A DNA stretch of 48,671 nt from assembly GCA_015060965.1 (NCBI GenBank), contig SUXN01000022.1:1-48671 (forward strand). The letters are read 5' to 3'. Shown here one piece after another: positions 36,083-37,687 of the stretch. This DNA comes from Bacteroidales bacterium (GTDB lineage Bacteria > Bacteroidota > Bacteroidia > Bacteroidales > Bacteroidaceae). Within the stretch, counting starts at the first letter, position 1; each line of letters starts with the position of its first letter. Both the position numbers and the translations under genes were made by a program. A model generated the notes under the pieces. That model was not told the origin of the DNA and did no database searches. It saw only the letters and a program-made list of their open reading frames with translations.

Positions 36083-37687
36083 ATGGCTGAAACAAAATTC
36101 ATCTTCGTTACCGGTGGTGTTGCTTCATCACTTGGAAAGGGTATCATCTCTGCATCCATCGGCAAACTCTTGCAGGCGAGAGGATACAAGGTTACAATCC
36201 AGAAATTCGATCCGTACATCAATGTCTCTCCAGGTACACTTAATCCACAGGAGCATGGTGAGTGTTATATCACAATAGACGGTCATGAGGCTGACCTTGA
36301 CCTCGGTCACTATGAACGTTTTACCGACATCAAGACTACACGCTGGAATACTTTTACAACAGGCCGCATCTACAGTGAGGTCATTGAGAAGGAGCGTCGT
36401 GGCGAGTATCTCGGCAAGACAGTTCAGGTTATCCCTCATATCACAGACGAAATCAAGCGCAAGATGAAGCGTGGCAGCACAAAGGAGAAGCTTGACTTTG
36501 TGATTACAGAAATCGGTGGTACCGTCGGCGATATCGAGGGCTTGCCGTTCCTTGAGGCTATCCGCCAGTTGAAGTGGGAGCTTGGCCGTCGCGCAGTGTG
36601 CGTGCACCTTACATACGTTCCTTACCTCTCCGCAGCAGGCGAGCTCAAGACAAAGCCGACACAGCACTCTGTAAAGCAGTTGCAGAGCCTGGGTATCCAG
36701 CCCGACTGTCTTGTCTTGCGTGCCGAGCACAAGTTGAGCGTTGGTCTCTGCAAGAAGGTGGCAAGCTTCTGTAATGTAATGCCCGACTGTGTTGTACAGA
36801 GCCTTGACGTGCCTTCAATCTACGAGGTGCCCATCAAGATGCAGGAGCAGGGTCTTGACGCTGCAATCCTCCGCCTCACAGGCGAGGAGGTTGGTGAGAC
36901 TCCCGAGATGAAGCCATGGCGCACATTCGTTGAGCGCCGCAACAATGCAAAGCGCGTAATAAACATCGGTCTTGTTGGTAAGTACGACCTCCAGGATGCA
37001 TACAAGAGTATCCATGAGAGCCTCAGCCAGTGCGGTACATACAATGACTGCAAGATTAAGCCTCACTTCATCAACAGCGAGAAGATTACAGAAGAGAACG
37101 TTGCACAGATGCTCAAGGGCATGGACGGTTATATCATCTGTCCGGGCGTTGGTCCACGCGGTTTCGAAGGTAAGGTTATTGCTGCAAAGTATTGCCGCGA
37201 GAACAACCTCACCACATTGGGAATAGGTCTCGGTATGCAGGTGATGGCAATTGAGGTTGCACGTAACATCCTGGGTCTTGCCGATGCCAACAGCTACGAG
37301 ATGGACGACCAGACAAAGAACCGTATAGTAGACATCATGGAGGACCTCAAGAGCGTAGGCAATCCATTCGGTACCATGCGTCGTGGCGGTTATGACACTG
37401 TAATCACAAAGGGTAGCAAGGCGAATGCAATCTATGGTGCCGAGAGAATCACCGAGCGTCACTATCACCGTTACGAGATTAACGTGGAGTATCTTGACGA
37501 GCTTGTAAAGGCAGGTCTGGCATGTACCGGTATCCACCCCGAGAGCGGTCTTGTTGATATTGTGGAGTACCCTGCAAACGACTGGTATGTAGGTGTAATC
37601 TATGAGCCGCAGTACTCAAGTACAGTGCTTCATCCGTCACCGGTTGTCATGGATTTTGTAAAGAATGTTGTAGCCCGCAAGGGATAA
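36083..37687 (+). CDS. pyrG: CTP synthase with a degenerate glutaminase domain
   Basis: 534 residues, normal length. The synthetase half is intact: [61 protein letters not shown]. It should therefore make CTP from UTP, ATP and ammonia. In the glutamine amidotransferase half the nucleophile motif reads GIGLGMQ, with Gly382 where family members have Cys (GICLGMQ). The His-Glu motif reads YEPQY, with Glu508 and Gln510 replacing FHPEY. The oxyanion-loop region is PGVGPRG instead of PGGFGxRG. Glutamine hydrolysis should be lost, although the domain is retained and in frame. It may depend on free ammonia, have a regulatory role beside another PyrG, or act with a separate glutaminase. Confidence 0.95.

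Follow-up and report, generated by a model that had tools for sequence, protein, structure and literature searches.

Results

The window analysed in the present study, a stretch of 48,671 nucleotides, carries on its forward strand a pyrG gene (36083..37687) that encodes, in a single open frame with an ATG start, a CTP synthase of 534 aa with an inactive glutamine amidotransferase (GATase) domain. The synthetase (amidoligase) domain covers residues 5-264 (36095..36874, PF06418 match) and retains its P-loop and metal ligands, and the class I GATase domain covers residues 303-522 (36989..37648, PF00117 match), full length and without its catalytic triad. The two fused domains were recognized by their Pfam models (CTP_synth_N 397.6 bits, GATase 67.2 bits), and the whole protein scored 659.9 bits against the PyrG model TIGR00337 of NCBIfam, for which the cut-off is 462.75. 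The motifs PGVGPRG, GIGLGMQ, ERHYHRYE and YEPQY begin at residues 354, 380, 458 and 507, respectively. In an alignment with solved CTP synthases, Gly382 (codon GGT, 37226..37228), Glu508 (37604..37606) and Gln510 (37610..37612) stand at Cys379, His515 and Glu517 of the E. coli enzyme, the E. coli numbers being counted by hand along the 5tkv row, and hence the nucleophile and the catalytic His and Glu are all replaced. In the synthetase half, Lys19, Lys41, Asp73, Glu143, Lys189 and Lys191, which we take to be the P-loop and metal/nucleotide residues of the synthetase site, were invariant in a 21-row alignment of dead and intact PyrG. The protein thus has a pattern like that of carbamoyl phosphate synthetase (CPS) I, with the GATase in frame, the catalytic Cys gone and the synthetase intact. 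In the oxyanion/lid L11 stretch PGVGPRG (residues 354-360, 37142..37162), Val356 stands at E. coli Phe353. The same alignment puts Phe429 within loop L13 and Tyr461 (37463..37465) at E. coli Arg468, a residue of the modelled GTP site according to passages of the review PMC9138612. The initial annotation, made from the letters of the window, had described a full-length, in-frame GATase with these three replacements, an altered oxyanion loop and a preserved synthetase site, and the frame and the alignments agree with it on each of these points.

The genus of the window comprises 44 genomes, and the clade members are incomplete metagenome-assembled genomes (MAGs), so that one missing gene proves nothing. 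The triad-dead PyrG of the window type was present in 22 of the 44, in 23 copies that are 89-100% identical (one genome, G326, has two copies, both dead). All 23 copies carry GIGLGMQ, YEPQY and PGVGPRG, the last with Val356 and Pro358. The three replaced residues are constant and their codons vary synonymously, being GGT in 18 and GGC in 5 copies for Gly382, GAG in 14 and GAA in 9 for Glu508, and CAG in 20 and CAA in 3 for Gln510. A sequencing or assembly error was therefore ruled out, as the residues are common to 22 genome assemblies with differing codons. A sister form of PyrG, 73-76% identical and with the triad present, was found in nine further genomes and carries Q386H and E406D, at E. 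coli Gln383 and Glu403, which are presumably Gln-pocket residues of CTP synthase. Of the remainder, one genome (G328) has an N-terminal pyrG fragment alone and was put in no class, and 12 of the 44 gave no pyrG match in the protein search. The same motifs were also seen in 22 named loci of a separate collection, and these loci overlap with the 22 genus genomes. They come from uncultured Bacteroidaceae or Bacteroidales MAGs, and the isolate names of 20 of the 22 point to the rectum, colon or cecum of sheep, goat, deer, yak or buffalo. The host of the window is an uncultured Bacteroidaceae species of ruminant-gut type.

The median pairwise dN/dS in the window clade was 0.014 for residues 1-265 and 0.048-0.049 for residues 291-528, compared with 0.011-0.044 (synthetase) and 0.024-0.089 (GATase) in five intact PyrG groups, and the GATase/synthetase dN ratio was 4.4 vs 1.4-3.8; dS is near saturation in these comparisons, which makes the dN/dS figures rough. 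The GATase half is somewhat relaxed yet still clearly constrained, and a pseudogene was ruled out by the open frame and these values. The initial annotation had asked whether the substitutions are conserved in a clade with dN/dS below 1, and this is the case (23/23 copies; dN/dS 0.014 for the synthetase half and about 0.05 for the GATase half). It had also suggested looking for another pyrG in that genome. A PF06418 profile search of the window's genome (G000; 2.59 Mb, 69 contigs, 94.9% complete) gave a single place, the pyrG of the window, and no second catalytic pyrG was found with that profile. This bears on the proposal of a pseudo-CTP synthase that has a regulatory or filament-forming role and does not supply the cell with CTP. 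CTP synthases form filaments in other organisms, and two of the 22 dead-enzyme genomes (G314 and G316) hold an intact island pyrG besides the dead one; in the other 20, that of the window included, no intact pyrG was found. Furthermore, dN/dS is lower in the synthetase half, where 86 of 88 near-invariant columns are preserved. We therefore consider a pseudo-enzyme extremely unlikely. The selected, glutaminase-dead CTP synthase of the initial annotation stands, best read as probably ammonia-dependent, and its regulatory or filament-forming paralogue is not supported for the window's genome.

Six genus genomes (G295, G297, G307, G322, G327 and G329), 82-98% complete, form a single early branch in the PurL tree, and no pyrG match was obtained in any of them by protein search. 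The product of their incompleteness is about 2e-6, a rough figure as genes are not missed randomly and G295 and G327 are nearly alike in PurL. This branch has either lost CTP synthase or carries one that the protein search misses through divergence. It counts against the ammonia-dependent reading, as some relatives could obtain their CTP by salvage. With regard to the gene neighbourhood, his-operon-like genes (named by sight) lie between maf and pyrG in sister genomes (L118, L131), and maf and pyrG are neighbours in the window (35259-36083) and in L101 and L103. L117 retains hisH (named by NCBIfam) and other pieces, with no listed frame like the hisF of L118. Both the six-genome branch and the disappearance of the his-operon-like genes from beside pyrG would suit a slow decay of the gene, in which CTP comes from cytidine salvage and the loss of the triad is a step toward gene loss. 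Nevertheless, the gene is of full length and has no stops, the dN/dS of its synthetase half is 0.014 across the clade, and the replacement residues are fixed in their turn, although their codons vary, which makes such a decay very improbable.

Loss of the triad was also found in other lineages of the family. In the genus g211, pyrG was matched in 16 genomes and YYPQY was present in nine of them, five of these nine having Cys changed to Gly and four keeping Cys; the other seven were intact, five of them of the island type. In g205, Cys was changed to Gln with HPEY kept in 2 of the 24 genomes with a match (a subset was read, and two of the 24 are fragments), and the g205 rows read at about 55% identity were intact. 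In G464 (g191), Cys was changed to Gly (GLGLGLQ) and HPEY was kept. A 141-row PyrG tree placed the 23 window-type copies in one clade (SH-aLRT 100) together with the nine sisters, and g211, g205 and G464 elsewhere. The intact state changes four times in this tree, three of the changes being forced by starred branches; the tree was made by a quick method without bootstrap, and G464 and some others are long branches. Two rows, L132 (a repeat entry of the gene in the window) and the truncated L199, were dropped before the counts. The lineages g205 and g211 are near each other in the tree and have no triad substitution in common. A motif survey of 399 family genomes admitted only sites with Ile ahead of the Cys position and with a codon at that position that does not begin with T; its matches were mostly other genes and it missed G464, so no loss rate was drawn from it. 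In six genomes of g196 and g193 (G349, G395, G442, G371, G452 and G478), the pyrG alignment falls into two blocks on either side of about residue 131, within a single frame of 575-630 aa that has an insertion of some tens of residues, and the pyrG of G349 contains a counted stop.

The substitutions in the GATase half go beyond the triad. Among columns at least 99% identical in 97 intact homologues, 13 of 53 in the GATase were fixed to another residue in the window clade vs 2 of 88 in the synthetase (Fisher p 5.6e-5); in a leave-one-out control, intact rows averaged 0.06 GATase breaks, with a maximum of 2. The excess was also found in the sister form (p 0.012), g211 (p 0.041) and G464 (p 0.012). 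In g205 there was no such concentration of changed columns in the GATase (4/53 vs 5/88, p 0.73), which counts against the ammonia-dependent reading. The positions lost in the window clade include E. coli Phe353, Arg468 and one glycine of loop L13. According to passages of PMC9138612, the modelled GTP site is surrounded by Arg468, Arg470, Glu68, Arg356, Thr51 and Leu109, and Pro54 lies in the constriction of the tunnel. One of five residues scored for the modelled GTP activation site is changed in the window PyrG, the Tyr at Arg468, and Glu69, Leu110, Arg359 and Arg463 (E. coli Glu68, Leu109, Arg356 and Arg470) are kept. Each of the four triad-dead lineages has one or more altered residues in the modelled GTP site. 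In E. coli numbering, the GTP-site or tunnel residues changed are Thr51, Pro54, Leu109 and Arg356 in g205, Leu109 and Arg468 in g211, and Glu68 in G464. Recurrent changes among the triad-dead lineages fall at columns 49 and 56 (E. coli 48 and 55) and in loop L13. Ten columns, including three triad columns that partly define the lineages, were changed in at least two of the four lineages vs 3.95 expected, and as many were reached in 11 of 20,000 shuffles. Within domains the recurrence was weaker (synthetase 2 vs 0.45, 1195/20,000; GATase 8 vs 5.0, 837/20,000). According to the same review, GTP is an activator of the glutamine reaction and, in E. coli though not in L. lactis, a weak inhibitor of ammonia use, and therefore loss of the GTP site fits an ammonia enzyme. 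It also mentions that G352P, in the same lid of the E. coli enzyme, abolishes the glutamine-dependent activity and leaves the NH4Cl-dependent activity nearly full.

The other amidotransferases of the window's genome were searched with the PF00117 profile, which gave three places, namely pyrG, guaA and a gene for a 601-aa gamma-glutamyl hydrolase-like protein. CarA, HisH and TrpG were not found in this genome-wide search, nor was a free-standing class I glutaminase of any known amidotransferase. The GuaA is 435 aa long; its GATase part matches profile positions 1-76 of 190 only, and its ATPPase and C-terminal models are above their cut-offs. Of the 44 genus genomes, 26 have the complete 435-aa GuaA; among these are 16 of the 22 genomes with dead PyrG and 5 of the 9 with the sister form. 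The genome has carB, directly preceded by a PurF-like gene. In the main carB loci of 33 of the 44 genus genomes (the other 11 had no match or were left out, as were the second carB place of G321 and the third of G316), carA was absent beside carB in 33/33 and the PurF-like gene adjoined it in 32/33, the contig of G311 ending too soon. The search for carA elsewhere in the genome covered the window's genome, and in the other genus genomes the main carB locus was read. An orphan carB alone was dropped as a diagnostic, as the control G059 (genus g2) also has carB without an adjoining carA. In the genomes with the sister form, GuaA is already short and carA already missing from the main locus, so that both losses seem older than the loss of the PyrG triad in the window's genus.

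PurL keeps its Cys (GICNGC or GVCNGC) and His in 31/31 genomes read, including that of the window, and the gamma-glutamyl hydrolase-like protein keeps VLGICRGVQ and WHPES, as read by eye; a general loss of class I triads was thereby ruled out. The PurF-like protein is weak in Pfam (GATase_6/7, E 4e-8 to 1e-4), and its name is our own reading together with the gene position. Its leader-plus-Cys was seen and judged by eye. The PurF-like genes before carB or carA (L292:6081-7961, L268:4605-6497) have nearly no match to the Pfam class II GATase and phosphoribosyltransferase models, and their presence in nearly every main locus read suggests a divergent family worth naming. Glutamine is probably made in the window's genome, since there are two glutamine synthetase places, and loss of glutamine synthetase was ruled out as a cause for the same reason. 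A probable supply of glutamine is what would be needed if a separate glutaminase docked on the dead GATase domain and fed the tunnel in trans with glutamine-derived ammonia. A docking surface would be conserved, as the dead domain is; two-subunit amidotransferases exist, as described in part of PMC10526850; and ammonia could be supplied by a glutaminase of an unrelated family, the genome-wide search having covered the PF00117 family. That search found no free-standing class I glutaminase of the known kind, however, and a glutamine-fed enzyme would be expected to keep the modelled GTP site, in which one or more residues are changed in each of the four triad-dead lineages. Hence, docking in trans appears very unlikely to us.

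The accompanying changes recur outside the genus. A GATase-less GMP synthase was present in 7/7 triad-dead genomes checked of the three further lineages. In a survey of 151 family genomes, 15 had a single, GATase-less GuaA (G401 and G447 being scored by match range and frame length alone); their PyrG was triad-dead in nine and of the sister form, with an intact triad and altered Gln-pocket residues, in three, no PyrG was found in three, and none was canonical. The main CarA had no Cys in 10/10 g211 and g205 genomes read, and it was intact in 5/5 island CarA and in 2/2 controls (G258 and G341). The motifs were GIGLG[CN]Q with FAPEA (five genomes) and GLGLGSQ with FNPET (G448 and G474) in g211, and GIEMGC or GVGMGC with FHSE (three genomes) in g205. 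In a comparison of the ATPPase region, the full-length GuaA rows were separate from both GATase-less forms. The 435-aa GuaA shows 86-88% identity across genera in which PyrG shows 63-67%, and this higher identity suggests a horizontal transfer of the gene between genera. A GATase-less GuaA of about 327 aa was seen beside a full-length GuaA in many family genomes (G358, G460, G466, G471, G377, G397, G364 and others), and a dedicated ammonia-type GMP synthase may be widespread. In G382 (L277:7851-11090), a gene that groups with GSIII glutamine synthetases lies directly before a GATase-less GuaA.

Some genomes also hold a glutamine-type set of these genes. In G314, G316 and G336 it is one block (the island) of a GSIII glutamine synthetase, LL-diaminopimelate aminotransferase, PurF-like, carA, carB, guaA and pyrG, the names being from profiles for G314 and G316 and from similarity for the remainder. 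The triads of the island guaA (GICYGAQ, HPE) and pyrG are intact. In G301 the carB-guaA-pyrG part is present and the contig is cut there. The island pyrG is thus found in 4 of the 44 genus genomes, and it groups apart from the housekeeping pyrG in the tree. Contig C9 of G316 carries both the island and the main locus without carA, so a binning error does not explain the pair. Similar blocks were seen in G474 and G448 of g211, that of G474 also with gltB and gltD, alongside the dead main CarA. The idea that the island serves at low ammonium was dropped, given the expression data for Prevotella ruminicola 23 in the part of PMC5552732 that deals with them, where glnN-2 and gltBD, clustered with dapF, were up about 27- to 35-fold on non-limiting ammonium.

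Discussion

CTP synthase is a textbook example of a glutamine-using enzyme, in which the glutaminase is gated by GTP and the ammonia passes through a tunnel. Our findings are very probably explained by a convergent switch in which free ammonia replaced glutamine in the synthesis of CTP, GMP and carbamoyl phosphate, with the PyrG of the window as a working housekeeping CTP synthase. In this enzyme, UTP activated by ATP would be aminated by free ammonia from the cytosol without hydrolysis of glutamine, and the dead GATase domain would persist as a structural part. The purifying selection on this domain counts against such an explanation, since a mere scaffold need not account for the constraint, and so does the dN excess of 4.4, which is little above the 3.8 of one intact group. 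CarB alone, with no carA, the GMP synthase with its GATase stump and the CTP synthase would all use ammonia directly, and PurL, and probably also the PurF-like enzyme, would retain glutaminase. These nucleotides are thus probably made by the bacterium of the window directly from the ammonia around the cell. The use of external ammonia has been described, in the parts of the papers concerned, for the ATPPase modules of GMP synthetase (PMC10526850) and for CPS (PMC6022934).

The losses are conserved within the clade, occur together and have separate origins, and the switch would have arisen several times within the family. We infer that high ammonia in the gut was its selective cause and that the cell depends on ammonium. 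Going further, we lean towards the view that a complete route from free ammonia to carbamoyl phosphate, GMP and CTP arose several times in gut Bacteroidaceae, the three losses coming together, that many species obligately need environmental ammonium to make nucleotides, that the glutamine counterparts are an optional island with glutamine synthetase, and that one branch may have dropped CTP synthase. If the ammonia reading is right, glutamine analogues would leave these three steps untouched and the cells would need ammonium. The triple loss of glutaminase can be regarded as a natural experiment on the role of the GATase domain, of GTP control and of the tunnel, and the clade also informs when cells can rely on free ammonia. 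The lineages provide graded intermediates, from a Gln pocket altered with the triad intact, through loss of His and Glu with Cys kept in some, to full loss, much like the path to vertebrate CPS I. We found no earlier description of such a glutaminase loss among the open-licence PMC papers covered by our search.

Compared with canonical bacterial PyrG (TIGR00337; E. coli 1s1m/5tkv), the window PyrG has the same two-domain architecture, the same synthetase residues and all the family scores, but it has no Cys-His-Glu triad, and Arg468 of the modelled GTP site and loop L13 are altered. The ATPPase subunit of the archaeal two-subunit GMP synthetase is likewise a module that can use external ammonia, as part of PMC10526850 describes; the archaeal enzyme has a separate GATase subunit, whereas the GuaA of the window's genome has a fused stump and no free GATase partner was found there. 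In the single-domain, ammonia-dependent NAD synthetase, ammonia is also the physiological donor instead of glutamine, according to the abstract of PMC3376133. That single-domain form is thought to be ancestral, whereas the window PyrG would have lost glutamine use secondarily and kept the dead domain. The closest likeness in pattern is to vertebrate CPS I, an amidotransferase made ammonia-dependent by loss of the catalytic Cys with the GATase domain retained, as passages of PMC7657897 describe. The same passages report that bullfrog CPS I kept the triad and lost the Gln-binding residues, and the sister PyrG clade, with Q386H and E406D, has the same combination of an intact triad and an altered Gln pocket. 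CPS I differs in being one animal enzyme that serves detoxification, whereas here three bacterial nucleotide enzymes are concerned, in several lineages and mostly as the sole copies found.
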